From Flavobacteriia bacterium (GTDB taxonomy: Bacteria; Bacteroidota; Bacteroidia; Flavobacteriales_D; Crocinitomicaceae): DNA of 64,000 nucleotides. The notes beneath the pieces were generated by a model that made no database searches, was not told the origin of the DNA, and saw nothing but the letters and a program-made list of their open reading frames with translations. A program made the position numbers and the translations under genes. How positions within the stretch are numbered: the stretch's first letter is position 1; each line of letters starts with the position of its first letter. Location: contig JACPDW010000020.1 of assembly GCA_016183815.1 (NCBI GenBank), positions 184,548-248,547 of the forward strand, written 5' to 3'. Below are positions 26,977 to 53,902 of the stretch, piece after piece.

Positions 26977-28164
26977 ATGAATAATTTAGCAGAGATTATT
27001 GCTGCCTGTAAAGACTTAGCATTTGACTTAGATTTCAAAAGAGCTAAGCAATGGAAAGAAGAAAAAGCAAACAGAGTTGTGGTAGGTTATTTACCAATTT
27101 ATTTTCCAAGAGAAGTCATACACGCAGTAGGTGGATTACCTGTTGCAATTTTTGGAGGTGGTGACCGTAAACAAATCATTAAAGGTGATGCCTATTATCA
27201 ATCATATATTTGTCATATTCCTAGAAGCGTTATTGAATTGGTGTTGGATAAGCATACCGCTCATTTTGATGGATATATTTTCCCTTCAATCTGTGATGTA
27301 ATTAGAAATTTGTCTGGTATTTTTAAACAACAAAATATTGGAAAATTTGTAAAATACATGGATTTTCCACAAAATTTTTTACCACAAGTAGGGGGTGTTT
27401 TTTTGCAACAAGAGATGCAACATGTAGTTGATTATATTACTGAAATTAGTGGAGAAAAACTTACAACAGAAAAATTAAATCATTCTATTTCTTTGTATAA
27501 TACAAATAGAAGATTAATTGAATTTATTTATGACATCAGAGAAAAATACCCATGGAGATTAAGTATTGAAGATGTGTATCATATTATAAGAGCAGGAACT
27601 GTTATTCCTGTAGAAGAACACAATGAGATATTAGAAAAAGTTTGTGCGTTTATAGACCAAGAAATTGGAAAACCACAAGACAAAATAAAAGTTGTAATTT
27701 CTGGAGCTTTTTGTGAGCAACCTGCAATTGGATTGATTAGAGCAATTGAAGAAGCTGGGTGTTATGTAGTGGATGACGACTATCAATTGGGGTCAAGAAT
27801 GATTATTGGTGATATTGATGATAAAACAGATAATCCGTTAGAGGCACTTTCCAATGCGTATATTAAACAAAGTCAATATTCTTCCTCAATTTACGATATT
27901 AGTAATCCAAAAGAATATCGTTTAGCAAAAATTGTTGAAAAAAGAAAAGCAGATGGAGTTATTTTTGCTTCAGCGAGTTTTTGTGACCCGAGTTTATTAG
28001 ATGCACCAATTTTTCAAAATGCATTTGATAGAATGGGAATTAGATACATTGCTTTTCAATACAGTGAAAACATTAATCAATTTAAAGTGATTAAAGAACA
28101 AGTTGGAGCATTCTCTGATTCTATTAAGTTGTGGGAAGATGAGCCTATGACTGTTAACGATTAA
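26977..28164 (+). CDS. bcrC: Benzoyl-CoA reductase (class I), gamma/BcrC-type subunit
   Basis: GYLPIYFPREVIHAVGGLPVAIFGGG, FPSICDVIRNLSG, VVISGAFCEQPAIGLIRAIEEAG; 2-hydroxyacyl-CoA dehydratase D-component fold; operon context with bcrB/A/D, oah, dch. Confidence 0.85.
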   Translation: MNNLAEIIAACKDLAFDLDFKRAKQWKEEKANRVVVGYLPIYFPREVIHAVGGLPVAIFGGGDRKQIIKGDAYYQSYICHIPRSVIELVLDKHTAHFDGYIFPSICDVIRNLSGIFKQQNIGKFVKYMDFPQNFLPQVGGVFLQQEMQHVVDYITEISGEKLTTEKLNHSISLYNTNRRLIEFIYDIREKYPWRLSIEDVYHIIRAGTVIPVEEHNEILEKVCAFIDQEIGKPQDKIKVVISGAFCEQPAIGLIRAIEEAGCYVVDDDYQLGSRMIIGDIDDKTDNPLEALSNAYIKQSQYSSSIYDISNPKEYRLAKIVEKRKADGVIFASASFCDPSLLDAPIFQNAFDRMGIRYIAFQYSENINQFKVIKEQVGAFSDSIKLWEDEPMTVND

Positions 28165-28202
28165 CCCTAAAATAAAACAATAATAATCTAAAAATTAAAT
28201 TT

Positions 28203-29489
28203 ATGTCTCAAGAAGCTATAAAAGAACGTAGTATGATTCTTCAAAAAGAAATGGTTGAAGGATTGTTTAATGACTTAGCAAATGCAAAAGAATTAGGTAA
28301 AAAAGTCTGTTACACTTTTGTGCCTGGTAATTTATCTGAACTTATTCGTACTTTCGATTTATTACCGGTTTATCCTGAAATTAATGCATTACAAAGTGCT
28401 ATGAGAAAAAAATCAGCTGGATATATCAAAGAAGCTGAAAAAAATGCTCACTCTGAGGATGTCTGCACTTACGTTAAATGTGATGTAGGTATGTTGATGA
28501 AAGGAAATATTGGTCCAACAGGACAAAAAATCCCTGAACCTGATATTCTTTTGTTAAGTTATACTGGCTGTTTTACTTTTATGAAATGGTTTGAAACCTT
28601 AAAAAGAGAATATCCTAATGCAAAAGTGATCATGATTCATACTCCTTATCAGGAAAATGCTAAAATGACACCTCAAATGATTGAGTATATGGTGAAACAA
28701 TTCAAAGAAGAAGTAATTCCTCAAATGGAAGCGGTTTCAGGCATAAAATACGATGAAAATAAATTGAAAAAAATACTTGAATATTCTAAAGAAGCAGAAG
28801 ATTGGATTACAAAGATTTTTGATACAACCAAACATCGTCCTTCCCCAATTGATGCTTATTTTGCTGGTGTTTATTATATAGGTCCAATTAACATTGGTTT
28901 TAGAGGAACTCCAGAAGCTGTTGAATATTACAAAGAACTATACAATGAAATTCAAGAAAGAATTAAGTTGGGTTTAGGCCCCATCACTCCAGAAGGAGAG
29001 ATGAAAGAGGAAAAATATCGATTAGTAGTTGAAGGTCCTCCAAATTGGACAAACTTCCGCGAATTTTGGAAAATATTTTACGATATGGGAGCAGTAATTG
29101 TTGCTTCTTCTTATACAAAAGTTGGTGGTGTCTATGATTTAGGTTGGAGACATGATCCTTCAAGACCACTAGAAACACTTTCAGAATATTGTATGAATTG
29201 TTATACCAATTTAAATATTCCTCAAAGAATTTCTTTACTGACAAAATGTATTGAAGATTATCAAGCAGATGGATATATAACTAATTCTATCAAAAGTTGT
29301 AATTCATTCTCTGCTGGTCAGTTGGCTATGATGAGAGAAATTGAAGACAAACTTGAAGTACCAGTTGGTTTTATAGAGTCAGATTTGGTTGACCCGAGAT
29401 ATTTTTCTTATTCCAATATCAAAAATAGATTAGAATCCTATTTCCAAATGTTGGCTCAAAGAAAAACAATGGAAAAAACAGAAGCATAA
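28203..29489 (+). CDS. bcrB: Benzoyl-CoA reductase (class I), beta/BcrB-type subunit
   Basis: YTFVPGNLSELIRTFDLLPVYPEINALQSAMRKKSAGYIKEAEKNAHSEDVCTYVKCDVGMLMKGN, SYTGCFTFMKWFETLKREYPNA. Confidence 0.87.
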   Translation: MSQEAIKERSMILQKEMVEGLFNDLANAKELGKKVCYTFVPGNLSELIRTFDLLPVYPEINALQSAMRKKSAGYIKEAEKNAHSEDVCTYVKCDVGMLMKGNIGPTGQKIPEPDILLLSYTGCFTFMKWFETLKREYPNAKVIMIHTPYQENAKMTPQMIEYMVKQFKEEVIPQMEAVSGIKYDENKLKKILEYSKEAEDWITKIFDTTKHRPSPIDAYFAGVYYIGPINIGFRGTPEAVEYYKELYNEIQERIKLGLGPITPEGEMKEEKYRLVVEGPPNWTNFREFWKIFYDMGAVIVASSYTKVGGVYDLGWRHDPSRPLETLSEYCMNCYTNLNIPQRISLLTKCIEDYQADGYITNSIKSCNSFSAGQLAMMREIEDKLEVPVGFIESDLVDPRYFSYSNIKNRLESYFQMLAQRKTMEKTEA

Positions 29490-29509
29490 ACATTAAAATT
29501 TTTTTAAAA

Positions 29510-30931
29510 ATGAATAAATATTATTTAGGTATCGACTTAGGATCAACAACTTCTAAAGCGGTAATAATAAACGAATCGGACGAGATAGTTGGTAGAGGGA
29601 TAACCAACACGAGAGCCAATTATAAAGTAGCTGCTGATATTGCACGAGAAGAGGCCATTTATGATGCACGTTTTACCTTGCTTGAACAAAAAATTGGTAA
29701 AGACAATGCTATAAAAACGGAATTTAAATTTTATATGAAAGACTTAAGAAATGTTTTTCAATATGGTCAATTTAGACGTCGAATGGAAAGTTTAGAAAGA
29801 TTGTTAAATGAAACTGTTTCTTCCTTTACTTATGCAAGCAAAGATAAATTTAAAACTGAACTAGAAAGAATAATTGAGAAAATTCGTCCTCAAATCCGTC
29901 ATGAGTTTATTTCTGAAAATTTAGGTTCAAAAAATCAATTTTTTAGAGATATTGTGAGTGAAAGATATAATTTAGAAGTTGAAAAACTTGGTGGAGAATA
30001 TTACGAACCGTTAATGCTAGCTTTTGATAAAAGTATTACTCCTGTTGAAAACGAAATGGTTGTCTATAATTTTAAAGAACTTGTTCACGAGTCGATGAAT
30101 ATTTTAGATGAAAAATATCGTGGATTGGTTGATCAACAAGAAGATGGAAGCAAAGAAGATTGGTATTATGCTGAACTAAATGTGGTAAAAAATAATTACA
30201 AAACTGTAGAATCTACATTAAGACAACATATTGATGAAATAGCAGATCAAGATATCAATATCGCTAGAATGGTGGGCACGGGTTATGGTCGTGCTTTATT
30301 GCCATTTCCTGAAGATTGTATAAAATCTGAAATTCTTTGTCATGCTTTTGGTGCTCATGCAGTTTTCCCAAATACAAGAACAGTTTTAGACATTGGCGGA
30401 CAAGATACCAAAGCAATTCAAGTAGATAAGCACGGTTTAGTAACTAGTTTTCACATGAACGATCGTTGTGCTGCTGGCTGTGGTAGATATTTAGGTTATA
30501 TAGCTGATGAATTTGGTTTATCGTTAAATGAATTAGGTCCAGAGGCAAATAAAGCTACAAAAGAAACTACGATTTGCTCTACTTGTACTGTGTTTGCAGG
30601 AGCTGAAGTGAAAGAATTATTACATAATGGTGAAGAAAGACCTAATATTTTGGCTGGATTACATAAAGCAATTGTCCAAAGAGCGATGTCTTTAATTGCA
30701 CGTTCAGGTGGTGTGAGAAACGAATTTACTTTTACTGGGGGTGTAGCTAGAAATGAAGCTGTATTGAAATACGTTAAAAAAATGGTTACAGATGCTTATG
30801 GAGAAGTGACTATGAACATTCATACAGATTCAATTTTTATGGGTGCTTTAGGTGGTGCAATGTTCGCTCGTAGAAATATTGAAGTGGATTTGCCAACAAC
30901 AAGCACGACTAAAGAAAAAGTAGAGGAATAA
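29510..30931 (+). CDS. bcrA: Benzoyl-CoA reductase (class I), BcrA-type ATPase subunit
   Basis: YYLGIDLGSTTSKAVII, GTGYGRALLPFPEDCIKSEILCHAFGAHAVFP, VLDIGGQDTKAIQVD, MNDRCAAGCGRYL; long form (473 aa) as in Thauera/Rhodopseudomonas-type BCR. Confidence 0.87.
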   Translation: MNKYYLGIDLGSTTSKAVIINESDEIVGRGITNTRANYKVAADIAREEAIYDARFTLLEQKIGKDNAIKTEFKFYMKDLRNVFQYGQFRRRMESLERLLNETVSSFTYASKDKFKTELERIIEKIRPQIRHEFISENLGSKNQFFRDIVSERYNLEVEKLGGEYYEPLMLAFDKSITPVENEMVVYNFKELVHESMNILDEKYRGLVDQQEDGSKEDWYYAELNVVKNNYKTVESTLRQHIDEIADQDINIARMVGTGYGRALLPFPEDCIKSEILCHAFGAHAVFPNTRTVLDIGGQDTKAIQVDKHGLVTSFHMNDRCAAGCGRYLGYIADEFGLSLNELGPEANKATKETTICSTCTVFAGAEVKELLHNGEERPNILAGLHKAIVQRAMSLIARSGGVRNEFTFTGGVARNEAVLKYVKKMVTDAYGEVTMNIHTDSIFMGALGGAMFARRNIEVDLPTTSTTKEKVEE

Positions 30932-30988
30932 TGAATATAAACAATTGTCTATTGATTTTTTAATTACTAATTTCATCAAAAAAAGTAT

Positions 30989-32116
30989 ATGAATAAGAAA
31001 AAAGTAATTGTTTTAGGAGCTGGTTTAATTGGTAAAACAATTGCTATTGACCTTAAAAAATCATGTGAAGTGGTTTCAGCAGACGTTTCTCAAGAATCTT
31101 TAAATATATTAGAAAAAGAACATCAAATATCAACTTTGTGTTTTGATTTTAATGATGAACAAAAATTTAAAGAAACATTAGCCTCTTTTGACATTGTGGT
31201 CTGTGCTGTTCCTGGCTTTATGGGTTTTCACACATTAAGTAAAATTATTAAATGTGGAAAATCTGTAGTGGACATTTCCTTTTTCCCTGAAAACGCTTTA
31301 GAATTAGATGAATTAGCAAAAAATCATCAGGTTACTGCAATTGTAGATTGTGGGGTTGCTCCAGGTTTGTGTAACTTAATTGCGGGTTATCACAATAAAA
31401 TTAAAGCCCTTACTCATTATGAATGTCTAGTTGGTGGTTTACCGAAAGTGAGAGAATGGCCTTATGAATATAAAGCTGTTTTTTCTCCAATTGATGTGAT
31501 TGAAGAATATACTCGTCCTGCTCGTTATGTAGAAAATGGTCATCTCGTAACAAGAGAAGCATTATCTGATGCAGAGTTAATTGATTTTGATAAACTGGGA
31601 ACACTTGAATCTTTTAATACAGATGGCTTAAGATCTTTAGCTTTGACAATGTCTCATGTTCCCAATATGAAAGAAAAAACTTTGCGTTTTCCAGGACATA
31701 TAACACTGATGAAAGTCTTGAGAGAAACAGGATTTTTTGATAAAAATGAAATAGATATTAATGGTCAAAAAATTGCACCATTATCATTCACTTCAAGTTT
31801 ATTATTTCCAAAATGGAAAATGAAAAAGGAAGAAGCTGATTTTACAGTGATGAGGGTTACCTTGGAAAACCAAAATGAAAGATTTGTTTATGATTTATAT
31901 GATGAAAAAGATGAAATAAATCAAGTTACCTCTATGGCTCGAACAACGGCTTATACATGTACAGCAGCTGTTCAATTGCTTATAAATAATTTGTATAATA
32001 AAAAGGGAATTATTCCTCCTGAATATTTAGGAGAATCTGTTGAATGTTTTAATTCCATGATTAGCTATTTGGAAGATAGAAATGTTCGTTTAAATGTAAA
32101 AACTATAAAAAAGTAA
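30989..32116 (+). CDS. Saccharopine dehydrogenase/lysine 6-dehydrogenase-like oxidoreductase
   Basis: VIVLGAGLIGKTIAIDL Rossmann motif, CGVAPGLCNLIAGYH, VGGLPKVREWPYEYKAVFSPIDVIEEYTRPARYVENG. Confidence 0.75.
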   Translation: MNKKKVIVLGAGLIGKTIAIDLKKSCEVVSADVSQESLNILEKEHQISTLCFDFNDEQKFKETLASFDIVVCAVPGFMGFHTLSKIIKCGKSVVDISFFPENALELDELAKNHQVTAIVDCGVAPGLCNLIAGYHNKIKALTHYECLVGGLPKVREWPYEYKAVFSPIDVIEEYTRPARYVENGHLVTREALSDAELIDFDKLGTLESFNTDGLRSLALTMSHVPNMKEKTLRFPGHITLMKVLRETGFFDKNEIDINGQKIAPLSFTSSLLFPKWKMKKEEADFTVMRVTLENQNERFVYDLYDEKDEINQVTSMARTTAYTCTAAVQLLINNLYNKKGIIPPEYLGESVECFNSMISYLEDRNVRLNVKTIKK

Positions 32117-32122
32117 AAAATT

Positions 32123-32983
32123 ATGAAAGAAAGAATTTATACCATGGGCGTTGACGTAGGTGGAAGTTACGTTAAAGCTGTTTTGTTATCTTATGATCAT
32201 GAAAATGGTCAACATACTTTAATTGACAAACAAACAGAGAAAATTAGAAAAAGAAATCCAAAAGATGTCGTGGTTGAAGCAGTAGATATGATTTTAGAAC
32301 GTCAAAAACTTAATTATGACAAAGATATTTCTTATCTAGCATCAACGGGCGAAGGTGAAATGGTCGAAAAAAAGACTGGACATTTTTATTCAATGACTTC
32401 ACATGCTAAAGGTGGAATATTTTTTTCTCCAACTGCAAAAACAGTAGTTGATTTAGGTGGACTTTACGTAAGAGCCATTAAAGTTGATTCAAGAGGAAAA
32501 GTTATTGATTACAAAATGACAGGACAATGTGCTTCTGGTTCAGGACAATTTATTGAAAATATTTCAAGATATTTAGGATTAGCTATCGAAGAAGTTGGAG
32601 ATATTTCATTAAAATCTGAAAATCCAGAAGTGCCTTCTGGTATTTGTGCTGTTTTAGCAGAAACAGATGTAATTAACTTAGTTTCAAAAGGTATTTCTAC
32701 TCCAAATATTGTAAAGGGAATTAACTTATCTATTGCTCAACGAGTTGTTAAATTACTTGGTTCATTAGGTGCTGAATCACCAATTGCTTTAGTTGGTGGA
32801 ATGGGTATGAACAAAGGAATGGTGCAAGCTATTGAAGAATTAGCAGCAGACAACAAGAAAAAAAGTTTTGAATTTTTAGCTCATCCTGATTCCATTTATT
32901 CTGGTGCACTTGGAGCCGCAATTTGGGGTGGATATAGATATTTTAAATTGAAAGAAAAACAACCTGAATTAGTTAATGCTTAA
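32123..32983 (+). CDS. bcrD: Benzoyl-CoA reductase (class I), BcrD-type ATPase subunit
   Basis: YTMGVDVGGSYVKAVLLSYD, STGEGEMVEKKTGHFYSMTSHAKG, VDLGGLYVRAIKVD, TGQCASGSGQFIENISRYLGL. Confidence 0.87.
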   Translation: MKERIYTMGVDVGGSYVKAVLLSYDHENGQHTLIDKQTEKIRKRNPKDVVVEAVDMILERQKLNYDKDISYLASTGEGEMVEKKTGHFYSMTSHAKGGIFFSPTAKTVVDLGGLYVRAIKVDSRGKVIDYKMTGQCASGSGQFIENISRYLGLAIEEVGDISLKSENPEVPSGICAVLAETDVINLVSKGISTPNIVKGINLSIAQRVVKLLGSLGAESPIALVGGMGMNKGMVQAIEELAADNKKKSFEFLAHPDSIYSGALGAAIWGGYRYFKLKEKQPELVNA

Positions 32984-34739
32984 AACAAATCATGTGGAAA
33001 CTATAAAATCAGATATCCCTCTTGGTGAAATTGTTCCAAATATGGCTGTTTTTTTAAGACAGAATACGGAAAAATTTGCATCAAAAATTGTTTTTAGTGA
33101 AAAAAACGCAAAAGGGGACTACGTAGGTATTAGTTGGGAAAATTTTTATCAAGATATTTTGAATATTGCTTACAATTTGAAAGCATCAGGTGTACAAAAG
33201 GGAGATAAAATTGTTCTTTTTTCAAGAAATTCATTAAAAATGCTTGAAGCTGAGTTGGCAATCATGTCTATTTCTTGTATAGCCGTTCCAATTTTTGCCA
33301 ATTTTAAGAAAGAAACAGCTGAATTGTTAATTACTCATTCCGATTCAAAATACGTTATCGTTGCCGAAGAATTACAATTAGATCAAATGAGTGAAGATCT
33401 GCCCATCAAAAAAATATGGACATTTAATGATTGTGAAGACAAACGATTTAACAATATTGAACCATTTAGTAATTTGTTGAAAAAAAGAAAAGAATTAGAT
33501 TTTAAACTAGATGAAAACGCTGATTCAAAAGAGATTTGTTTAAATATGTACACATCTGGTACAATGGGAGTTCCAAAATGTGTTCAACTGTCTCATCAAA
33601 ATATTTTATCTCAACAAGTTGCAATAGAAAAAATATTAAAAATAAAGGATAACGACAGATTTTTAGCTTATTTACCATGGCATCATAGTTTTGGTGGAAT
33701 TTTTGAATTGTTTTCTTCATTGTATAATGGGGCTACTTTTTATTTAGAAAGTAGTTTTGGTAAAGATGCCAAAGAAATTTTTGAAAATTGGAAATTAGTT
33801 AAACCAACTGTTTTTTACAGTGTTCCTAAGGTTTACCAATCATTATATGAGTTGACATTAGAAAATAATGAAGCAGAAAACACTTTTTTTAATTCTGGTT
33901 TAAAATTTATTTTTACTGCTGCTGCTTCTTTACCTGAAAAATTATCCAACGAATTTGAAAAAAGAGGCATTCCCGTTTTTGAAGGATGGGGTTTGACGGA
34001 AACTTCTCCCTGCTGTACGATTACTGATCCAAGTGTAAAAAGAATAACAGGTGTTGTTGGGAAACCAATTCCAGGTGTTGAAATTCGAATCGCAGAGGAC
34101 GATGAAATACAAGTGAAAGGTCCAAATGTAATGAGGGGATATTATAAAAACGATGAAGCAAACAGCAATATCTTTACTGATGATGGTTGGTATAGAACAG
34201 GTGATGTAGGTAAAATTACTGAAAGTGGATTGCAACTAATTTCAAGAAAAGATAGAATTTTTAAACTATCAAATGGTGAAAAAGTTATTCCAACTGATTT
34301 AGAAAAAGCAATTGAATTAAAATGTCATTATGTTCAATATGCAGTTGTTGCTGGAAGTGGAGAAGAACATCCTGTAGCATTAATTTTTCCAAACAAAAGA
34401 TTGCTTGAAAATCCTGCATATCAGTTGTCACCAAAAGATGGTAGATGTTTTTGTCCAAGAAGTTTAAACGAATTAGGAAAATGTTTGACAGGTTGTTTGG
34501 CTCAAGCTAATGAAAGTATTGGTCAAAAATTTGCGAAGGTAAAATCAGCTGCTGTAATTTTAGACGATTTATCCCTTGATACAAACACTTTAACTCCATC
34601 AATGAAAGTAGCACCAAAAAATGTGGTCGAAAAATATAAAGCACATTTAAAAAATTTATACGGAGATCACGTTCCAGTCGATGAAGAAGTTTATGTAATT
34701 CAATTGGATAAAGTTAAAAACGAGAAAAAACATGTATAA
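32976..34739 (+). CDS. AMP-forming acyl-CoA synthetase (long-chain-type; substrate unknown)
   Basis: NMYTSGTMGVPKCVQLSHQN, FEGWGLTETSPCCTITDP, GWYRTGDVGKI, ISRKDRIFKLSNGEKV; insert CPRSLNELGKCLTGCLAQANE. Confidence 0.8.
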   Translation: MLKTNHVETIKSDIPLGEIVPNMAVFLRQNTEKFASKIVFSEKNAKGDYVGISWENFYQDILNIAYNLKASGVQKGDKIVLFSRNSLKMLEAELAIMSISCIAVPIFANFKKETAELLITHSDSKYVIVAEELQLDQMSEDLPIKKIWTFNDCEDKRFNNIEPFSNLLKKRKELDFKLDENADSKEICLNMYTSGTMGVPKCVQLSHQNILSQQVAIEKILKIKDNDRFLAYLPWHHSFGGIFELFSSLYNGATFYLESSFGKDAKEIFENWKLVKPTVFYSVPKVYQSLYELTLENNEAENTFFNSGLKFIFTAAASLPEKLSNEFEKRGIPVFEGWGLTETSPCCTITDPSVKRITGVVGKPIPGVEIRIAEDDEIQVKGPNVMRGYYKNDEANSNIFTDDGWYRTGDVGKITESGLQLISRKDRIFKLSNGEKVIPTDLEKAIELKCHYVQYAVVAGSGEEHPVALIFPNKRLLENPAYQLSPKDGRCFCPRSLNELGKCLTGCLAQANESIGQKFAKVKSAAVILDDLSLDTNTLTPSMKVAPKNVVEKYKAHLKNLYGDHVPVDEEVYVIQLDKVKNEKKHV

Positions 34740-37816: not shown

Positions 37817-37818
37817 AA

Positions 37819-39015: not shown

Positions 39016-39043
39016 TCCAAATGTTTAAATAAAAAAAGAACAA

Positions 39044-41125: not shown

Positions 41126-41133
41126 TTACCGAT

Positions 41134-42172: not shown

Positions 42173-42183
42173 TATTTGAAAAT

Positions 42184-43362: not shown

Positions 43363-43367
43363 ATAAT

Positions 43368-44471: not shown

Positions 44472-44481
44472 TATTGTAAAC

Positions 44482-45261
44482 ATGTTATATTCAAAAATAA
44501 AAATCAACTATTCTCATAATGATTCTGTTTGCAATATTCTTTTAGATGACGGAAAAGGGAATGTTTTAGATAATACAATGATGAACGAATTGATTTCTTC
44601 ATTAAAAGAGCTTAGAGAAAATAATGAGATTAAATTAATTACATTTCAAGGAGAAGGGAAACATTTTTCATTTGGAGCTAGCGTGGAAGAACATACCAAA
44701 GATTTAGCTGAAACGATGATAAAAACTTTTCATAGTTTGTTTTTTCTAATTCAAGAAATGAGTATCCCTACGATGGCTAAAATTTCTGGACAATGTTTAG
44801 GTGGTGGATTGGAGTTAGCCTTAATGTGTGACTTTATGTTTGGGGATCAATCTGCAAAGTTGGGTCAACCAGAGATTATATTGGGTGTTTTTCCTCCTCC
44901 TGCCTCAATTATATTGCCTGAAAAAATTGGTTTGGCTAGAGCTGAAGAATTGTTGCTTTCAGGTAGAAGTATGGATGCTATTGAAGCACATCAAATTGGT
45001 TTGGTCAATTACCTTTTTGAAGATAAAAACCAATTGAATTTAGGTGTTGATGCATACATCGAAAAATATATCCTTCCAAAAAGTGCTTCTTCTTTAAAAT
45101 TTGCAGTAAAAGCAGCAAGAATTAAATTTAACCACATTTTTTCTAATTTTATTCCTCAATTGGAATTCATTTATAACAAACAATTAATGGAAACATATGA
45201 TGCGAATGAAGGTATTAATGCTTTTTTAGAAAAAAGAACTCCTAATTGGAAAAATAACTAA
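44482..45261 (+). CDS. dch: Cyclohexa-1,5-diene-1-carbonyl-CoA hydratase
   Basis: ILLDDGKGNVLDNTMM, HFSFGASVEEHTKD, GQCLGGGLELALMCDFMFGDQSAKLGQPEIILGVFPPPASIILPEKIG; start set at MLYSKIK. Confidence 0.85.
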   Translation: MLYSKIKINYSHNDSVCNILLDDGKGNVLDNTMMNELISSLKELRENNEIKLITFQGEGKHFSFGASVEEHTKDLAETMIKTFHSLFFLIQEMSIPTMAKISGQCLGGGLELALMCDFMFGDQSAKLGQPEIILGVFPPPASIILPEKIGLARAEELLLSGRSMDAIEAHQIGLVNYLFEDKNQLNLGVDAYIEKYILPKSASSLKFAVKAARIKFNHIFSNFIPQLEFIYNKQLMETYDANEGINAFLEKRTPNWKNN

Positions 45262-45272
45262 TCAATAAAAAC

Positions 45273-47102
45273 ATGAACACAGAATTACAAAATGCAGTAA
45301 TAAAATTTTCAGGTGATTCAGGCGATGGAATGCAATTGATAGGATCTTTATTTACAGATACAACTGCAATTATGGGAAATCAAATTGCTACTTTTCCTGA
45401 TTTTCCATCAGAAATTAGAGCTCCTCAAGGTACAGTTGCTGGAGTTTCAGGTTACCAAATTAATTTTGGAACCAGTGGAGTTCACAGTCCTGGAGATGCA
45501 GCAGATGTACTTATTGCTATGAATCCAGCTGCTTTAAAAGCTAATTTTACAAGTATAAAAGACAATTGTACAATTATTATTGATAGCGACACTTTTACTC
45601 AAAAAGACTTAGAAAAAGCGGGATTTGAAAATAATCCTTTTGAAGATGGTACTTTAGAACAATATCAAATTATTGAAGCACCGATAACAAGTTTAACAAA
45701 AAAAGCAGTATCAGAATTAGGCATCGATAACAAAAGTGCAGACAGATGTAAAAATATGTTTACTTTAGGAATAGTTTTTTGGTTATTTAGTGAACCACTT
45801 GATCAAACTTTACAATACCTTGAGAATAAATTTAAAAAAAATCCAATAATTGGTCAAGCGAATCAATTGGCATTACATGCTGGTTGGAATTATGCATTGA
45901 CAATAGAGGCAATAAAAAATTCATACACTGTTCCGCCTGCTAAAAAAGAAGCAGGAGTTTATAGAAATATTACTGGTAATCAAGCTACTGCTTGGGGATT
46001 TATGGCTGCTGCCAAAAAAGCTGGAAAAAATCTTTTTCTTGGTTCTTATCCAATAACGCCTGCAACGGATATCATGCAAGAACTTACTAAACAAAAATGG
46101 TCGGGTGTTAAAGTTTTTCAAGCTGAAGACGAAATAGCTGGTATTTGTTCGGCAATCGGCGCTTCATTTGCTGGGGAATTGGCAATCACCACAACCTCTG
46201 GTCCAGGAATGGCTCTTAAAACAGAAGCGATTGGTCTTGCTGTAATGACTGAATTGCCTCTAGTAATCGTCAATGTTCAAAGAGGTGGTCCTTCTACGGG
46301 GTTGCCAACAAAAACAGAACAATCCGATTTGATGCAAGCCGTTTGGGGCAGAAATGGTGAAAGTCCAGTTGTGGTTATTGCAGCTAGTTCACCTTCTGAT
46401 TGTTTTATGTGGGCTTATGAAGCTTCTAGAATAGCTTTAGAACACATGACTCCTGTTGTTTTGTTGACAGAAAGTTATTTAGCTAACGGGTCTGAACCAT
46501 GGAAAATTAAAAAACTTTCTGAGATGCCTGAAATTCATACACGTAGCTATGAAACAATAGATAAAAAATGGAAACCTTATCAAAGAGATTCAGAAACTTT
46601 AGCAAGAAGATGGGTAGTACCTGGTACTAAAGAAATGCAGCATCGTATTGGTGGTTTAGAGAAAGATGAATGTACTGGCTGTGTATCGCATAATCCTCAA
46701 AATCATGAACTTATGGTGGATACACGAAAAGATAAAGTGGATAGAGTAGCTCATTCGTATCCATTACAAAGGGTAAAAGGTAAAAATGCCAATAAATTAT
46801 TAGTTGTTGGTTGGGGAGGGCAATTTGGTATTTTATATGGTGCGGTTAATGAACTTCAATCAGAAGGCAAAAATATTGCATTGACTCATTTTAATTATAT
46901 TCACCCATTACCATTAAATACGGCTGAAATATTTGAGAAATTTGAGAAAATTATTGTTTGTGAGTTGAATAAAGGTCAATTTGCCAATTATTTAAGAGCT
47001 ACATTACCACAATTTGAGTATATTCAATACAATAAAATTCAAGGTCAGCCCTTTAAAATAGAAGAATTAAAAGTAAAGTTTAACGAAATTTTAGAAAAAT
47101 AA
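45273..47102 (+). CDS. korA: 2-oxoacid:ferredoxin oxidoreductase, fused gamma-alpha subunit
   Basis: KFSGDSGDGMQLIGSLFTDT, FPDFPSEIRAPQGTVAGVSGYQINFG, GSYPITPATDIMQEL, AIGASFAGELAITTTSGPGMALKTEAIGLA. Confidence 0.9.
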   Translation: MNTELQNAVIKFSGDSGDGMQLIGSLFTDTTAIMGNQIATFPDFPSEIRAPQGTVAGVSGYQINFGTSGVHSPGDAADVLIAMNPAALKANFTSIKDNCTIIIDSDTFTQKDLEKAGFENNPFEDGTLEQYQIIEAPITSLTKKAVSELGIDNKSADRCKNMFTLGIVFWLFSEPLDQTLQYLENKFKKNPIIGQANQLALHAGWNYALTIEAIKNSYTVPPAKKEAGVYRNITGNQATAWGFMAAAKKAGKNLFLGSYPITPATDIMQELTKQKWSGVKVFQAEDEIAGICSAIGASFAGELAITTTSGPGMALKTEAIGLAVMTELPLVIVNVQRGGPSTGLPTKTEQSDLMQAVWGRNGESPVVVIAASSPSDCFMWAYEASRIALEHMTPVVLLTESYLANGSEPWKIKKLSEMPEIHTRSYETIDKKWKPYQRDSETLARRWVVPGTKEMQHRIGGLEKDECTGCVSHNPQNHELMVDTRKDKVDRVAHSYPLQRVKGKNANKLLVVGWGGQFGILYGAVNELQSEGKNIALTHFNYIHPLPLNTAEIFEKFEKIIVCELNKGQFANYLRATLPQFEYIQYNKIQGQPFKIEELKVKFNEILEK

Positions 47103-48131
47103 ATGGAAGATTCATCAGTTCAATGTGTATTAAAACCTAAAGACTACGCTAGTGATCAGGAGGTCAAATGGTGTCCTGGTTGTGGTGATTATGCGATTTT
47201 AAATGCCATGCAAAGAACTTTGGCAGAATTACAAATTCCAAAAGAACAAGTAGCAATAATTTCTGGAATCGGCTGTTCGTCAAGGTTTCCCTATTATCTC
47301 GATACATTTGGTTTTCATACCATACATGGTAGAGCAGCTGCAATAGCAACAGGTGTGAAACTCGCTAATCCTGATTTAAGGGTTTGGATTGCATCAGGTG
47401 ATGGTGATTCTCTTGCTATTGGTGGTAATCACTTTATACATGCTGTTCGTAGAAATACGGACATGAATTTATTAGTGTTTAATAATGAGATTTACGGTTT
47501 GACAAAAGGTCAATATTCACCAACAAGTGAACGAGGGAAAATCACTAAGTCGTCACCTCATGGATCCTTAGAAGCTCCTTTTAATATTGGTGAGATGGTA
47601 CTGGGTGCTCAAGGTCAATTTTTTGCTCGTGTTCCTGATACTGATGTAAAATTAATGACTCAAATATTTTTAGAAGCTGAAAAGTATAAGGGTTTTGCAG
47701 TTATTGAAATTTTACAAAATTGTGTAATTTTTAACGATAAAACGCACACAGAAATTACTTCAAAAGAAACAAAAGCAAACAATCAATTAATTTTAGAACA
47801 TGGAAAACCAATGCTTTTTGGTGAAAATAATTCTAAAGGGTTAAGATTAAATGGTTTACAGTTAGAAGTGGTGACCATAGGTGAAAATGGAGTTTCTATC
47901 AATGATATTTTGGTTCATGATGCTGAATGTAAGTCGAATATTTTACATCAAATGTTAATTCAAATGCAGTTGCCTGAATTTCCAATAGCATTAGGTGTTA
48001 TTAGAAAAAATGCTGAACATACTTACGATGAACTTTTTGGTAAGCAAATTACAAACGAAAAAGAGAAAAGTAAATACAAAGATTTAGACGAATTTTTTAC
48101 TCATGGTAATGTTTTTACTGTAAACGAATAA
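47103..48131 (+). CDS. korB: 2-oxoacid:ferredoxin oxidoreductase beta subunit
   Basis: VKWCPGCGDYAILNAMQ, GIGCSSRFPYYLDTFGFHTIHGRAAAIATGVKLANPDLRVWIASGDGDSLAIGGNHF. Confidence 0.92.
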   Translation: MEDSSVQCVLKPKDYASDQEVKWCPGCGDYAILNAMQRTLAELQIPKEQVAIISGIGCSSRFPYYLDTFGFHTIHGRAAAIATGVKLANPDLRVWIASGDGDSLAIGGNHFIHAVRRNTDMNLLVFNNEIYGLTKGQYSPTSERGKITKSSPHGSLEAPFNIGEMVLGAQGQFFARVPDTDVKLMTQIFLEAEKYKGFAVIEILQNCVIFNDKTHTEITSKETKANNQLILEHGKPMLFGENNSKGLRLNGLQLEVVTIGENGVSINDILVHDAECKSNILHQMLIQMQLPEFPIALGVIRKNAEHTYDELFGKQITNEKEKSKYKDLDEFFTHGNVFTVNE

Positions 48132-48132
48132 A

Positions 48133-48744
48133 ATGAAACACAATGTACTCATACTTGCCGGTGGATTGTCCTCAAGAATGGGTTTTCCAAAACCTTTTTT
48201 GTTATTTAATGAGAATCAAAGTTTTTTGGATAAAATAGTTATGACATATTCCAATCTATCTACAATTTCAGAAATAATTGTTGTTTTAAATAGTTCATTT
48301 TATTCGATGTTTAAAAGTGAAATCGAATATTTAACAGAGTTTTGTTGTTTTATACCAAACGATTATCCCGAAAAAGACAGAATGTATTCCATTCGTTTGG
48401 GTTTAAATGCTTTCCATAAAAATAACCCTACTTTTATCCAAAATGTGGATAATCCTTTTATCGATTTGGAAACTTTAAATGCATTGACTCAAAATAAATT
48501 GAATGGTTTTGAATATACTTCACCCGTTTTTAATAATAAATCAGTACATCCAGTATTATTGAGTGAACAGATTGTTACGAACTTACAAAATGATATTAAT
48601 GAGGGTTCATTGAATGAAAAATTGAAAATGTGGAAAAAAAAATTAATTCCTGTTAAAAATGAGTTACTTTCTTTAGATTTTAATGAATTTACTGAGTACG
48701 AAAAATATTTTAAGCATTGTTTGACTACTGTAATGTCTATTTAA
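48133..48744 (+). CDS. MobA/MocA-like nucleotidyltransferase
   Basis: VLILAGGLSSRMGFPKPFLLF, FIQNVDNPFID. Confidence 0.8.
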   Translation: MKHNVLILAGGLSSRMGFPKPFLLFNENQSFLDKIVMTYSNLSTISEIIVVLNSSFYSMFKSEIEYLTEFCCFIPNDYPEKDRMYSIRLGLNAFHKNNPTFIQNVDNPFIDLETLNALTQNKLNGFEYTSPVFNNKSVHPVLLSEQIVTNLQNDINEGSLNEKLKMWKKKLIPVKNELLSLDFNEFTEYEKYFKHCLTTVMSI

Positions 48745-49460
48745 TGAAATCAGCTCTTTGTATAATTGTTGACACAAAAGGATCTACACCAAGAAAAATT
48801 TCATCAAAGATGCAAGTTTTTGAAGATGGTAGGATAAAGGGTACAATAGGAGGGGGGAATTTAGAAAAAAAAGTAATTGAAAATGCTTTAGAACAAATAA
48901 AAAAAAATGAAGCTAAACTTTTTAAACACGATTTATTACATCAACATAATATGTGTTGTGGTGGAACTGTTTATATCTATATCGAACCGATGAAAGAAAA
49001 ACTCAAACTTTATATTTTCGGTGCAGGTCATACAGGAGTGGCTTTAGCAGAAGCAGCAAATAAATTAGATTTTCAAGTAGTTGTAATCGATGACAGAAAA
49101 GAATATATCGATGCTATTCAAACCAATTCCTTTGAAAAAATCAACGCTACTATACAAAATTTTTTACCAACTATTCACTTTGATAAATCAAGCTATATTT
49201 GTATTTTAACCTATGATCATCAGTTGGACAGAGATATTTTATCTTATTGTATCAAGCAAAAGGTAGCTTATATTGGTATGATTGGTAGTCAGAGAAAAAT
49301 TGAAATGACAAAAAAAATATTTATCGATTCAGGAATAGCTGATGAGGAGGAATTAAATAAAGTAAATATGCCAATAGGCAAAAATATTTTGGCTGATACT
49401 CCAGAAGAAATAGCAATAAGTATTTTAGCTGAATTAATTGAAACAAAAAATAAAAAATGA
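48744..49460 (+). CDS. XdhC/CoxI family molybdoenzyme maturation protein
   Basis: IVDTKGSTPRKISSKMQVFEDGRIKGTIGGGNLEKKV, LYIFGAGHTGVALAEAANKLDFQVVVIDDR, YIGMIGSQRK; TAATG stop/start overlap. Confidence 0.88.
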   Translation: MKSALCIIVDTKGSTPRKISSKMQVFEDGRIKGTIGGGNLEKKVIENALEQIKKNEAKLFKHDLLHQHNMCCGGTVYIYIEPMKEKLKLYIFGAGHTGVALAEAANKLDFQVVVIDDRKEYIDAIQTNSFEKINATIQNFLPTIHFDKSSYICILTYDHQLDRDILSYCIKQKVAYIGMIGSQRKIEMTKKIFIDSGIADEEELNKVNMPIGKNILADTPEEIAISILAELIETKNKK

Positions 49461-50188
49461 AAAAAGTAGCACTCATCACAGGAGCAGCAAAAGGAATTGG
49501 TCGTGCCATTGCAGAAAAATTTCATTTATTGGGATATGTTGTATATATTGTTGATTTAGATGATGAAAATGGTCAAGAGTTAGTGAAAAAATTAGGAAAT
49601 AATGCATTTTATTTAAATATCGACATTACTAAAGTAGAAGAGGTTGAGTTGTTGTTTAATAAACTTTTGGAAAGTGAAAATCAATTAGATGTATTAGTGA
49701 ATAATGCGGGAATAATAAAAGATAATGTGATTTGGAATATGCCTTTAGAAGATTTTTCTACAGTAATTGATGTAAATTTAAAAGGTACATGGTTGATGTG
49801 CAAAAAAGGAGCTGAAGTGTTTAAAAAGCAAAAAAACGGTAGAATTGTAAATATAGCGTCTCGTGCGTGGTTAGGTAATCCAGGACAGTCTAATTATTCT
49901 GCTTCTAAAGCAGGTGTTGTTGGTTTAACAAGGGTTTTAGCGTTGGAATTAGGTCGATATGGAGTATTAGTAAATGCTGTTGCACCTGGATTGATTGATA
50001 CACCACTGACACAAAAATTAAGCGATGAAGTAAGAGAAAAATTAATTCATGCTCAACCGACAAAAAGTATGGGTAAACCTGAAGATGTAGCAAATACAGT
50101 TGCTTTTTTATGTGATGAACAAACACAATTCATTACTGGACAAACAATATATGTGGATGGTGGAAAAAGTATAGGTGCTGGAATTTAA
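49457..50188 (+). CDS. Short-chain dehydrogenase/reductase (FabG/BadH-like)
   Basis: ALITGAAKGIGRAIAEKF, NNAGII, YSASKAGVVGLTRVLALEL, FITGQTIYVDGG. Confidence 0.88.
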   Translation: MKKVALITGAAKGIGRAIAEKFHLLGYVVYIVDLDDENGQELVKKLGNNAFYLNIDITKVEEVELLFNKLLESENQLDVLVNNAGIIKDNVIWNMPLEDFSTVIDVNLKGTWLMCKKGAEVFKKQKNGRIVNIASRAWLGNPGQSNYSASKAGVVGLTRVLALELGRYGVLVNAVAPGLIDTPLTQKLSDEVREKLIHAQPTKSMGKPEDVANTVAFLCDEQTQFITGQTIYVDGGKSIGAGI

Positions 50189-50198
50189 AAAAAAAGAA

Positions 50199-52973
50199 AT
50201 GCAAATAGTACATTTAACAGTTAATGGAAAAGAGTATCAAGTATTGGTAGAACCACACGATACTTTAGCAAGAGTTTTAAGAGAAAAAATTTCTTTAACA
50301 GGAACAAAAATTGGTTGTGAACAAGCAAGTTGTGGGGCTTGTACAGTCTTTATAGATGGAAAAGTTGTTCAAAGTTGTATAACTCCTGTTTTGAGAGTGA
50401 ATGGCGCACAAATCACTACCATTGAAGGTGTTGCCGATCAAGGTAATCTTCATAGATTGCAAGAAAAATTTGTTGAGAAAGGGGCTATTCAATGTGGATT
50501 TTGTACTCCTGGAATGATTATGACTAGTTTGGAATTTCTTGAACATAATCCAAAACCAAATAGGGAAGAAATTCAAGAAGCTATTTCTGGAAATCTATGC
50601 AGATGTACAGGTTACGTTAAAATTATTGATGCCATTGAGTCTTATGCAAAAGGAGAATTAGATTCTGAATCCGAGAAAGCCAAATACGAAATGGTAGGAC
50701 AAGGAAGACCTTACATTGAAGCTACAAAAAAAGTTCAAGGATTAGCCGATTACGCTGATGATTATCAAATAAAAAATGCACTTTTTTGTAAGTTTTTGAG
50801 AAGTACTCATGCCCATTCTAAAATACTGAAAATTGATTATTCAAAAGCTCTATTATTAAAAGGAGTTAGAGCAGTAGTAACTGGAAAAGAATTGCCTTTA
50901 AAATTTGGGGTTTTACCTATTTCTCAAGATGAAACAGCTATGGCTGTGGATAAAACAAGGTATATCGGAGAAATAATAGCAGCAGTAGCAGCGGATACAG
51001 ATGCTATTGCTGAAAAAGCATTGGAATTGATTGAAGTGGAATACCAAGAAATGAAACCGTTTTTTGATATGATGGAATCTTGTGAAGATGTTGGAGACAA
51101 TGAAAAAATACATGAACACACTAAATTTAACAATAATATTCATAAAAAAGCAGAGCTTAGATTTGGAGACCAAAAAGAGGGTTTAGAAAAGGCAGCTCTT
51201 ACTTTTAGTGAAAAATTTTATTTTCAAGGTATCAATCATGGCTTTACTGAACCACATGCTGCTACCGCTTGGTGGGATGAAAATGGTTTAACTATTCTCA
51301 CAGCTACTCAGGTTCCTCATTATTTACATCGTTATTTGTCAAAGGTGTTAGAAGTGCCAATGAACAGAGTTCGAGTAATAAAACCAACCGTTGGTGGTGG
51401 GTTTGGAGGTAAATCCGATCCTTTTCCTCATGAAATGATTATCGCTCATTTATCAAGAAAATTAGGTCAGCCAGTAAAAATGAGGTTTTCTCGTGAAGAA
51501 GTTTTTTTAACTAATCATGGTCGTCATCCTAGTATTATTGATATGTCTATTGGTGTATCTAACGAAGGAATGATTGAAGTGTTAGATGCAGATATTGTTA
51601 TTGATGGTGGTGCTTATGGAAGTTTTGGTGTAGTTACCACTTATTATAATGGCGTTTTATTGCAAGCACCTTATAAACTCAATAATTTTGGATTTAGAAC
51701 AAGACGAGTTTATACTAACAAACCTCAATGTGGAGCAATGAGAGGACATGGCGCGGTTAATTCAAGATATGCTGTGGAAACCTTAATAGATCGCGCTGCG
51801 GAGCAGTTAAACATTGACCCATGTGAATTGAGATTCAAAAACTTTATTGACGAAAAATCACTTACAGTAGGGCAGTACCGTGTTACCTCAAATGGAAGTG
51901 AATTAGCACTTAAAAAAGTGATGTTAGATTCTGCTTGGACTAAAAAATACAAAAAATTACCTTATGGACATGGAATAGGAGTAGCTTGTGGATTTTTTAT
52001 AAGTGGAAGCGCTTTACCTATTCATTGGAATGAGTATCCTCAATCTGTTGTTCACCTTAAAGTTGATTTAGATGGCAGAGTTTTAGTAACGTCTGGTGCA
52101 AGTGATATTGGTCAAGGAAGTGATACCATGTTGGCAATCATTGTGGCGGAGGTTTTAGGTTTAAGTTTAGACAATATTTTTGTTGTTGCTGCGGATACTA
52201 CTTTAACTCCAATTGATTTGGGTAGTTATTCAAGCAGAGTAACCTTTATGGCTGGAAATGCAGCAAAAATGGCCGCAGAAAATCTTAAAAAACAAATTGA
52301 AGAGACCATTGTTAAAAATACAGGAATAAATAAAGATGAACTCAATTTTGAACATGAAAAAGTATTCTCTAATACTTCTGAAGTGAATTTGACTTGGACA
52401 GAAGCAATTGAAATGGCAACACGAAAAGTAGGTGCGTTAAACTCAACTGGTTTTTATAATTCTCCAAAATTAGGTGGTGATTTTAAAGGTGCTGGAGCAG
52501 GTTTAAGTCCTTCTTATAGTTTTGGCGCTGTGATAACTGAAGTAAAAGTAGATCCTGAAACAGGTCACGTCAAAGTTATTGATATTTGGGGTGCTCATGA
52601 CGCCGGAAAAGCACTAAATCCTCTAGCTGTTGAAGGTCAGTTACAAGGTTCATGGCACATGGGAATGGGTCAAGCATTGAGTGAACAAATGAAATATTAC
52701 AAAGGATTGTTGGTAAACAGTAATCTTTTAGACTATAAAATTCCAACTTCCAAAGATACACCTCCAATTCATACAAATATTATCGAAACCATTGATCCTG
52801 AGGGTCCATTTGGTGCAAAAGAATGTGGAGAGGGGGCATTGCATCCAGTTATTCCAGCGATTGCAAATGCAATTTTTGATGCAGTTGGCGTTAGAATCAC
52901 CTCTTTACCTATTAATTCTGAAGAAGTTTTAAAAGAGTTGAAAAAAAATAATATTGAAACGGAAAAAGTATGA
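50199..52973 (+). CDS. 4-hydroxybenzoyl-CoA reductase-like fused [2Fe-2S] (gamma) and molybdopterin (alpha) subunits
   Basis: GCEQASCGACTVFIDG, QCGFCTPGMIM...SGNLCRCTGY; VGGGFGGKSDPF, AMRGHGAVNSRYAVE, SGASDIGQGSDTM, FGAKECGEGALHPV; substrate inferred from HcrB-like partner and context. Confidence 0.85.
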   Translation: MQIVHLTVNGKEYQVLVEPHDTLARVLREKISLTGTKIGCEQASCGACTVFIDGKVVQSCITPVLRVNGAQITTIEGVADQGNLHRLQEKFVEKGAIQCGFCTPGMIMTSLEFLEHNPKPNREEIQEAISGNLCRCTGYVKIIDAIESYAKGELDSESEKAKYEMVGQGRPYIEATKKVQGLADYADDYQIKNALFCKFLRSTHAHSKILKIDYSKALLLKGVRAVVTGKELPLKFGVLPISQDETAMAVDKTRYIGEIIAAVAADTDAIAEKALELIEVEYQEMKPFFDMMESCEDVGDNEKIHEHTKFNNNIHKKAELRFGDQKEGLEKAALTFSEKFYFQGINHGFTEPHAATAWWDENGLTILTATQVPHYLHRYLSKVLEVPMNRVRVIKPTVGGGFGGKSDPFPHEMIIAHLSRKLGQPVKMRFSREEVFLTNHGRHPSIIDMSIGVSNEGMIEVLDADIVIDGGAYGSFGVVTTYYNGVLLQAPYKLNNFGFRTRRVYTNKPQCGAMRGHGAVNSRYAVETLIDRAAEQLNIDPCELRFKNFIDEKSLTVGQYRVTSNGSELALKKVMLDSAWTKKYKKLPYGHGIGVACGFFISGSALPIHWNEYPQSVVHLKVDLDGRVLVTSGASDIGQGSDTMLAIIVAEVLGLSLDNIFVVAADTTLTPIDLGSYSSRVTFMAGNAAKMAAENLKKQIEETIVKNTGINKDELNFEHEKVFSNTSEVNLTWTEAIEMATRKVGALNSTGFYNSPKLGGDFKGAGAGLSPSYSFGAVITEVKVDPETGHVKVIDIWGAHDAGKALNPLAVEGQLQGSWHMGMGQALSEQMKYYKGLLVNSNLLDYKIPTSKDTPPIHTNIIETIDPEGPFGAKECGEGALHPVIPAIANAIFDAVGVRITSLPINSEEVLKELKKNNIETEKV

Positions 52974-53902
52974 ATACAATAGAAAAAAAATATCTATTAC
53001 CTGAAACTATTTATGAAGCCAGTCGTTTTGCAATGGAAAATCAAGAAGATTTTACTTTTATTTCTGGTGGGACTGATGTCTGGGTAAATGCTTTTCAAGG
53101 AACACAAAAAAAATCTTGTATTATCGATTTAAGCAAAATAAATGAATTAAAAGGAATTGAAATTCAAGGCGATTTTCTAAGAATTGGAAGTGCTGAAATA
53201 TTAGAAGAGTTGAAAAATAATGATCTTATTAAAGTTCATTTTCCACTTTTGATTGAAGCTGCATTATCAGTTGGATCACCTTTAATAAGAAAAACAGCTA
53301 CAATAGGCGGTAATATTTTATGTGAAAATCGTTGTTTATATTTTAATCAATCTGAATGGTGGCGAGAATCTGTTGGTTATTGCTTAAAATGTGATGGTGA
53401 TATTTGTATTGCAACTGGAGGTAAAAATGCCTGTTTCTCTGAATTGGTCTCAGATACTGCTCCCGCTTTAATTACACTTAATGCAAAAATTGAATACGTT
53501 TATAATAATCAAGTTGTAAAAGTGGACTTGGAAGAAATTTATACGGGTGATGGAGTTTATCCAAGAAACCTTCCAAAAGAAGCTATTTTATTGGCTATAT
53601 ATCTACCATTGACGAAAAAAATTAACTCATCTTTCTTTAAATTAAGAGAGAGAGAAAGTATGGAATTTACTTCTTTGACATTTGCTGCAACAACCGACCA
53701 AAATGGAAATTTAAAAATTGCTTTAAGTGGAGTGGACCCAAAACCAGTGGTGTATTCAGGTTCATTAAACGACGATTCAGAACAAATTTTGAAAAAATTA
53801 GTTAAAGCAGCAAGATCTGTGGACAATGATATGTATTCTCGTGTTTATAGAAAAGAAATGATAAAAGTATATTTAGAAAGAGCATTAAAAGAATTAAAAT
53901 AA
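52970..53902 (+). CDS. hcrB: 4-hydroxybenzoyl-CoA reductase-like FAD subunit with extra 4-Cys insert (beta)
   Basis: FAD domain FISGGTDVWVN, IRKTATIGGNIL; insert CLYFNQSEWWRESVGYCLKCDGDICIATGGKNAC with C-x15-C-x7-C-x8-C spacing. Confidence 0.85.
   Translation: MNTIEKKYLLPETIYEASRFAMENQEDFTFISGGTDVWVNAFQGTQKKSCIIDLSKINELKGIEIQGDFLRIGSAEILEELKNNDLIKVHFPLLIEAALSVGSPLIRKTATIGGNILCENRCLYFNQSEWWRESVGYCLKCDGDICIATGGKNACFSELVSDTAPALITLNAKIEYVYNNQVVKVDLEEIYTGDGVYPRNLPKEAILLAIYLPLTKKINSSFFKLRERESMEFTSLTFAATTDQNGNLKIALSGVDPKPVVYSGSLNDDSEQILKKLVKAARSVDNDMYSRVYRKEMIKVYLERALKELK

Follow-up and report, generated by a model that had tools for sequence, protein, structure and literature searches.

Class I benzoyl-CoA reductase (BCR) is usually seen as a trait of denitrifying Proteobacteria, plus some archaea and deep-sea phyla. 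The Bacteroidota include the Vicingaceae. All four subunits of a BZD-type BCR have been found in a Vicingaceae metagenome-assembled genome (MAG) with NarG (PMC8470020), and class I BCR has been reported in Krumholzibacteriota (PMC10936416) and in several deep-sea bacterial and archaeal lineages (PMC6472368). Here we describe a stretch of 64,000 nt (the window) within a 248-kb contig of a Flavobacteriia bacterium of the Crocinitomicaceae (GCA_016183815.1, contig JACPDW010000020.1). Positions 26977-54460 hold a block of 22 genes (had counted once) predicted to encode the enzymes of a class I BCR pathway, a 4-hydroxybenzoyl-CoA reductase (HCR) and a companion module comprising an acyl-CoA ligase, a lone 2-hydroxyacyl-CoA dehydratase-like protein (HgdB) and a fusion of PanE with a dehydratase activase. 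From sequence comparison we read the block, with a probability of roughly 0.7, as a horizontally patchy aromatic-degradation operon of facultative nitrate-reducing Bacteroidota to which a dehydration module has been added.

All genes of the block lie on the + strand and mostly overlap, abut or are separated by short gaps, a layout already described in an earlier note on this DNA. The same note recognized a class I BCR/HCR block in a Bacteroidota genome, which is borne out by profile matches, the cluster insert of HcrB and recurrence in Bacteroidota MAGs. BcrA-D, Oah, Dch, Had, Hcr and DCCP assignments were made with NCBIfam models by comparing each score with the equivalog cut-off. For all four BCR subunits the best match is the respective Bcr model, with BcrB and BcrC above the cut-off and BcrA and BcrD below it (Table 1). 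BcrC has four cysteines in common with Thauera MbdN, of the BCR/MBR subtype, against six in BzdN (alignment to 9g87_B), and the three cluster cysteines and the PE(I/N) glutamate of BcrB are conserved in an alignment with MbdO, BzdO and HadB. The roles of the cluster cysteines and glutamate of BzdO, and the cysteine ligands of BzdN, have been described (PMC11971306). BcrCBAD is a predicted class I BCR of the BCR/MBR subtype. Oah scores above its equivalog cut-off and the best match of Dch is TIGR03189, though below its cut-off, which places the pair in the dearomatizing clade; the concern that such proteins might be generic dehydratases or crotonases proved unfounded, Oah, BcrB and BcrC all exceeding equivalog cut-offs. 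HCR models score best for the HcrC-HcrA fusion (932 aa) and for HcrB, and the closest solved structure is the 4-hydroxybenzoyl-CoA reductase 1rm6; the NQSEWWR motif and four cysteines of the HcrB cluster insert align to 1rm6_B (Thauera HcrB).

A scan of GTDB representative genomes for Oah listed at least 80 loci, nearly all in MAGs, at 64-88% identity and with Bacteroidetes, Bacteroidia, Flavobacteriales, Saprospiraceae, Bacteroidales, Ignavibacteria or other FCB labels. The gene order of the block recurs in dozens of independent MAGs, almost the whole arrangement being present in L026, L027 and L043, and the same operon lies on a 244-kb contig of a genome of the same family. In a tree with an arbitrary root (proteobacterial outgroup not included), the window Oah falls within a fully supported clade of Bacteroidota MAGs. 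Oah scored above the cut-off in none of the four sampled congeners and in just one of 55 further genomes from the family; the operon is therefore patchy. A plasmid search for named Oah relatives gave only generic crotonases, with a best coverage of 78%. The Oah of one genome of the same family (G023; L023:1019-2113) is 72% identical to that of the window and belongs to another clade, and its BcrB is 87% identical, which suggests gene replacement. Across L023, L087 and L088, Oah is 69-72% identical to the window protein, against 87-90% for the BcrB of G023 and L087; in these lineages oah was probably replaced within the operon.

The genome that carries the block (3.24 Mb, scored 100% complete and 0.02% contaminated) was examined by targeted family searches. 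NarG was found above its cut-off, together with two COX1-family (haem-copper oxidase) proteins and a glutaryl-CoA dehydrogenase that scores 441 bits to the decarboxylating type 2eba against 240 bits to the non-decarboxylating 3mpi. By its gene content the host looks like a facultative nitrate reducer equipped with the lower pathway, a profile that agrees with class I BCR as a trait of facultative anaerobes (PMC11971306). In such a host, HcrCA and HcrB would dehydroxylate 4-hydroxybenzoyl-CoA reductively to benzoyl-CoA, BcrCBAD would convert benzoyl-CoA to the 1,5-dienoyl-CoA with ATP and ferredoxin reduced by KorAB, and Dch, Had and Oah would carry the product through ring opening to 3-hydroxypimelyl-CoA. 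A dehydrogenase and a thiolase would then yield glutaryl-CoA, and the glutaryl-CoA dehydrogenase, encoded outside the block, would form crotonyl-CoA. Of the fusion of 3-hydroxyacyl-CoA dehydrogenase and enoyl-CoA hydratase claimed earlier, the hydratase half is clear and alone matches solved structures, and the dehydrogenase half is sub-threshold. Most relatives have a thiolase of a different type in place of the one in the block.

The genes for the ligase, HgdB and the PanE-activase fusion overlap by 8 bases at each junction. The closest solved relative of HgdB by sequence is HadB (165 bits, against 127 for MbdO and 78 for BzdO), and its AlphaFold model (pLDDT 90) is likewise closest in fold to HadB (3o3o, TM 0.89). 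Over 25 homologues, the cluster cysteines Cys80, Cys119 and Cys347 are invariant along with Ser33 and Glu51, which correspond to Ser37 and Glu55 of HadB, so that HgdB carries these residues of a dehydratase alpha subunit. Cys31 and Cys290 are also invariant in these homologues. Cys290 aligns with a double-cubane ligand column of BzdN and DCCP, Cys31 is offset by one and the sixth position has no cysteine; three core cysteines and Cys290 align, short of the six-cysteine double-cubane set. Identity with DCCP was ruled out by this cysteine set, by a DCCP model score of 58 bits where the cut-off is 350 and by a fold nearer to HadB. The activase half of the fusion has both cluster cysteines per chain, and its NDKCAAGTG and SFCTVFAKTE motifs align to 4eht, as expected of an activase. 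In the PanE half, Lys206 and Glu288, at least 98% conserved, match the PanE catalytic pair. HgdB is probably a 2-hydroxyacyl-CoA dehydratase, judging from its residues and predicted fold.

The ligase has a CxC-x9-C-x3-C motif (window 34446-34496) in its C-terminal lid. Among relatives, 26 full-length ligases and 14 proteins consisting of a stand-alone lid share this motif. At 12 loci the stand-alone lid accompanies an ADP-forming synthetase, and full ligases are absent from all synthetase loci; retention of the lid alone beside an ADP-forming synthetase therefore indicates a role of the lid beyond adenylation. The lid cysteines are perhaps a metal or Fe-S site. A structure model of the stand-alone lid is of low confidence (mean pLDDT 64). 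One such lid, at L044:4094-4564, lacks the adenylating half and has the ADP-forming synthetase at its locus.

The genome has exactly three HGD-D proteins, BcrC, BcrB and HgdB, as do most of 40 further genomes (37 picked via Oah and three via HgdB). HgdB is present in all 40 and is accompanied by a reductase pair in 39 of them; in G524 HgdB alone was seen. In G256, G520, G521 and G527, HgdB is present and the reductase pair scores like BzdN/BzdO rather than BcrC/BcrB, an assignment resting on profile scores and lengths. When genomes were sampled by phylum, HgdB was found in four of 396 Bacteroidota genomes (own genome included), all four with a reductase pair. Among 199 sampled Acidobacteriota genomes, some have a panE/hgdB/activase module that stands away from BCR genes, and in G707, G649 and G599 (completeness not established) HgdB was the sole HGD-D protein found. 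HgdB is therefore separable from BCR, and BcrC is unlikely to be its partner. Acidobacteriota modules include an ADP-forming acyl-CoA synthetase or a ligase, and two have a class III CoA-transferase as their neighbour. The fusion partner of PanE is the activase in the window and an HgdB paralogue in Acidobacteriota; these fusions and the Acidobacteriota modules mark PanE, HgdB and the activase as one functional unit. That ligase, HgdB and PanE-activase form a conserved unit is well supported.

Several side observations concern relatives of this module. In L139 (11814-14084), L141 and L142, all Acidobacteriota, the HgdB paralogue fused to PanE is 37% identical to HgdB, and its neighbourhood also holds had and another HgdB module. 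Distant HgdB relatives (32-35%) adjoin BcrC-like and BcrA-like genes in seven further genomes. At two Acidobacteriota loci (L147:14002-14862 and L154:7356-8195) a thymidylate-synthase-like protein is encoded near a stand-alone HgdB module.

The best reading of the module is a self-contained (R)-2-hydroxyacyl-CoA dehydration system that would interconvert a 2-oxoacid, the (R)-2-hydroxyacid, the 2-hydroxyacyl-CoA and the enoyl-CoA. In this scheme HgdB, probably as a homodimer, would carry out a ketyl-radical dehydration after its [4Fe-4S] cluster had received a single electron from the activase. The combination of PanE, a CoA ligase and a dehydratase with its activase follows the same logic as the clostridial Had and Fld pathways. 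The likeliest candidate substrate, put forward tentatively, is an aryllactate, either phenyllactate or 4-hydroxyphenyllactate from Phe or Tyr; aryllactates were judged the most economical choice because the operon ends at benzoyl-CoA and 4-hydroxybenzoyl-CoA. They would be converted to cinnamoyl-CoA or coumaroyl-CoA and, by beta-oxidation, to (4-hydroxy)benzoyl-CoA, and a phenyllactyl-CoA dehydratase route to benzoyl-CoA has been discussed (PMC13416013). It is possible, if doubtful, that HgdB represents a new subfamily of beta-less radical dehydratases, coupled to PanE via the activase fusion and obligately tied to class I BCR in Bacteroidota and relatives, where it would channel Phe and Tyr via aryllactyl-CoA and cinnamoyl-CoA to benzoyl-CoA. 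If true, this would be an anaerobic route of Phe/Tyr mineralization other than the phenylacetate route of Thauera and Aromatoleum.

A number of points weigh against this picture of the block and its module. The known 2-hydroxyacyl-CoA dehydratases form alpha-beta heterodimers, and no dedicated beta subunit for HgdB was found in the BCR-pathway genomes tested. HgdB has Gly at position 35 and Asn three residues past Cys347, unlike HadB and BCR, and specificity is therefore not readable from sequence. The Acidobacteriota modules away from BCR genes weaken the case for an aryllactyl substrate, as does the clustering of neighbouring genes, in which neither an aromatic aminotransferase nor any aryl-specific gene was recurrent next to the module, and the beta-oxidation genes of the block may serve 3-hydroxypimelyl-CoA only. 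Finally, the pathway that the earlier note called complete-looking has its gene set in place but not an intact Had: as the note itself observed, had is broken, its two open reading frames (ORFs) being separated by a frameshift from a 20-bp deletion directly after the dinucleotide-binding glycine motif.

This deletion could be real and the block a decaying or inactive acquisition, in which case benzoyl-CoA degradation would not be running in this strain. The deletion is missing from all nine relatives aligned with the window locus and so is unique among the ten loci, no second Had copy was found in a search of the genome, and the absence of the operon from the sampled congeners and most of the family points the same way. 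The remaining genes are, however, all intact and uniformly conserved, and, the assembly being a draft, a lone small deletion may have been introduced by assembly. We therefore regard an inactive block as unlikely.

The module might instead link 2-oxoglutarate, (R)-2-hydroxyglutarate, 2-hydroxyglutaryl-CoA and glutaconyl-CoA, so that the pathway would be connected at its glutaryl-CoA end with 2-oxoglutarate, whose oxidation by KorAB would reduce ferredoxin for BCR. 2-Hydroxyglutaryl-CoA dehydratase belongs to the enzyme family of HgdB, KorAB is encoded in the operon, and the polar Asn-x-Asn after Cys347 of HgdB would suit such a substrate. A shunt of this kind would also account for the strict co-occurrence of HgdB with both BCR subtypes. 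It is quite unlikely nonetheless. The glutaryl-CoA dehydrogenase of the genome resembles the decarboxylating type, so that the shunt is not needed; KorAB is not always adjacent to HgdB in relatives; and the PanE-family chains of solved structure that come closest are not established hydroxyglutarate enzymes.

HgdB could also be an alternative active-site subunit of the reductase that pairs with BcrC and, served by either the PanE-fused activase or BcrAD, reduces substituted benzoyl-CoAs. Its similarity to MbdO and the position of its gene, after bcrD and ahead of the remaining pathway genes, point this way, as does BcrC being the sole possible partner subunit in the genome. Against this, HadB is nearer in both sequence and fold, the PanE and ligase partners suit a 2-hydroxyacid pathway, and HgdB occurs equally with BzdN-type partners and as the sole HGD-D protein found in the three Acidobacteriota genomes; we consider a reductase role very unlikely. 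A chimeric assembly or a misbinned non-Bacteroidota contig, a risk raised in the earlier note, is practically ruled out: the GC content of the block (0.29-0.35) is slightly above that of its flanks (0.24-0.33) and the operon is patchy in the family, but it recurs in independent Bacteroidota MAGs and in a same-family genome, its Oah is nested in a Bacteroidota clade, the contig is long and the genome little contaminated, and a type IX secretion system (T9SS) protein is encoded inside the operon.

Table 1. Genes of the block at window positions 26977-54460, with the matches on which each assignment is based.
Feature	Position	Strand	Basis
BcrC, benzoyl-CoA reductase subunit C	26977..28164	+	TIGR02263 426 bits vs cut-off 421; alignment to MbdN 9g87_B
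BcrB, active-site subunit	28203..29489	+	TIGR02260 658 bits vs cut-off 487; alignment to MbdO 9g87_A
BcrA, ATPase subunit	29510..30931	+	best NCBIfam match TIGR02259 422 bits, cut-off 578 (below); PF01869
Saccharopine/lysine-dehydrogenase-like protein, between bcrA and bcrD	30989..32116	+	PF16653; closest solved chain 3abi
BcrD, ATPase subunit	32123..32983	+	TIGR02261 300 bits, cut-off 313 (below)
AMP-forming acyl-CoA ligase, C-terminal lid with CxC-x9-C-x3-C motif	32976..34739	+	PF00501 + PF23562
HgdB, lone 2-hydroxyacyl-CoA dehydratase alpha-type protein (HGD-D)	34732..35955	+	PF06050 197 bits
PanE (ketopantoate-reductase)/2-hydroxyacyl-CoA dehydratase activase fusion	35948..37816	+	PF02558/PF08546 + PF01869; closest activase chain 4eht
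Divergent thiolase	37819..39015	+	PF00108/PF02803
Divergent protein, enoyl-CoA hydratase half and possible 3-hydroxyacyl-CoA dehydrogenase half	39044..41125	+	ECH_1 above, 3HCDH_N below gathering score
Had, split into two ORFs	41134..42172	+	ORFs match first and second half of TIGR03201
Secreted protein with type IX secretion C-terminal tail	42184..43362	+	TIGR04183, PF18962
Oah, 6-oxocyclohex-1-ene-1-carbonyl-CoA hydratase	43368..44471	+	TIGR03200 582 bits vs cut-off 464
Dch, cyclohexa-1,5-dienecarbonyl-CoA hydratase	44410..45261	+	best match TIGR03189 227 bits, cut-off 292.5 (below)
KorA, 2-oxoacid:ferredoxin oxidoreductase subunit alpha	45273..47102	+	TIGR03710 638 bits
KorB, 2-oxoacid:ferredoxin oxidoreductase subunit beta	47103..48131	+	TIGR02177 254 bits
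Molybdenum cofactor nucleotidyltransferase-like (MobA-like) protein	48133..48744	+	NF045665, TIGR03310
XdhC-family Mo-hydroxylase maturation factor	48717..49460	+	NF045664, PF13478
SDR (short-chain dehydrogenase/reductase) oxidoreductase, FabG-like	49457..50188	+	TIGR01830
HcrC-HcrA fusion, 4-hydroxybenzoyl-CoA reductase [2Fe-2S] and Mo subunits	50175..52973	+	best model TIGR03194, TIGR03193 among matches; 1rm6_A 584 bits
HcrB, FAD subunit	52970..53902	+	TIGR03195; alignment to 1rm6_B
Hemerythrin-domain protein, last gene of block	53948..54460	+	PF01814

The gene list of the earlier note omitted five genes of the block: those for the lysine-dehydrogenase-like protein, HgdB, the PanE-activase fusion, the T9SS-tail protein and the hemerythrin. 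The note had placed a T9SS protein in the flanks of the block; the T9SS-tail protein lies inside, between had and oah in a catabolic operon. The had-oah slot is occupied by its homologues in L033 and L044 and by different secreted or outer-membrane-like proteins in L025, L031 and L036. The TAnnTTTG-like promoters of the note barely exceed chance, with 15 occurrences against 9.3 expected, as many in five of 100 shuffles, and none upstream of bcrC. The lysine-dehydrogenase-like gene also stands between bcrA and bcrD in L029, L063 and G155. The true start of Dch is probably downstream of 44410. The hemerythrin gene is found downstream of hcrB in many relatives' loci and perhaps serves in protection from oxygen or nitric oxide. 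Just downstream of the block, 55881-57125 encodes a FAD-dependent protein whose best NCBIfam match is the CmlS halogenase family (below cut-off), and at the upstream border an AddB-like nuclease with a Cas4-like C-terminal part is encoded divergently (23794-26580, - strand). An Rfam scan of the window found two tRNAs only.

Class I BCR appears here as a recurrent operon type across the Bacteroidota, the Ignavibacteria and neighbouring groups, and the number of anaerobic aromatic degraders may therefore be underestimated by marker-gene surveys built on Thauera-type sequences. The earlier note had thought such pathways not well described in Bacteroidota; class I BCR in the phylum has one earlier mention in print, the Vicingaceae report, and the taxonomic finding is only partly new. 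The companion module is the new part and worth follow-up. No description of the HgdB/PanE-activase companion was found in the open-access literature, a weak negative since subscription journals were mostly outside the scope. The constancy of the module points to a candidate radical dehydratase that seems to do without the second subunit customary in such enzymes. Should the Phe/Tyr reading hold, aromatics derived from protein would have a direct anaerobic path to benzoyl-CoA, in a phylum whose members degrade protein and necromass.

Compared with the known class I BCR/MBR-type pathway, the block has the same enzyme set, a four-cysteine BcrC, the BcrB active-site residues and KorAB for ferredoxin. 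It differs in its Bacteroidota host, in the added ligase/HgdB/PanE-activase module, in the secreted protein inside the operon, in having no ferredoxin gene and in a Had damaged in the assembly. The Vicingaceae MAG (PMC8470020) likewise combines class I BCR with NarG, but its reductase is of the BZD type and is mentioned in passing, whereas that of the window is of the BCR/MBR type and comes with full operon context. The Mo-hydroxylase subunits and the cysteine insert of the FAD subunit are common to the window and Thauera HcrABC (1rm6); in the window HcrC and HcrA are fused, and MobA-like and XdhC-like proteins are encoded just upstream. HgdB belongs to the same superfamily as DCCP and its reductase, also probably a homodimeric catalyst with its own ATPase, from which it differs in cysteine set, score and fold. 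The closest likeness of the module is to clostridial HadBC/HadI and FldBC/FldI: HgdB aligns full-length to HadB, a dedicated activase and a partner of 2-oxoacid reductase type are shared, and some Acidobacteriota modules have a class III CoA-transferase beside them. HgdB departs from these systems in lacking a beta subunit and in its extra invariant Cys31 and Cys290, and the module in its PanE-type, activase-fused reductase and in CoA activation by an AMP-forming ligase or an ADP-forming synthetase.

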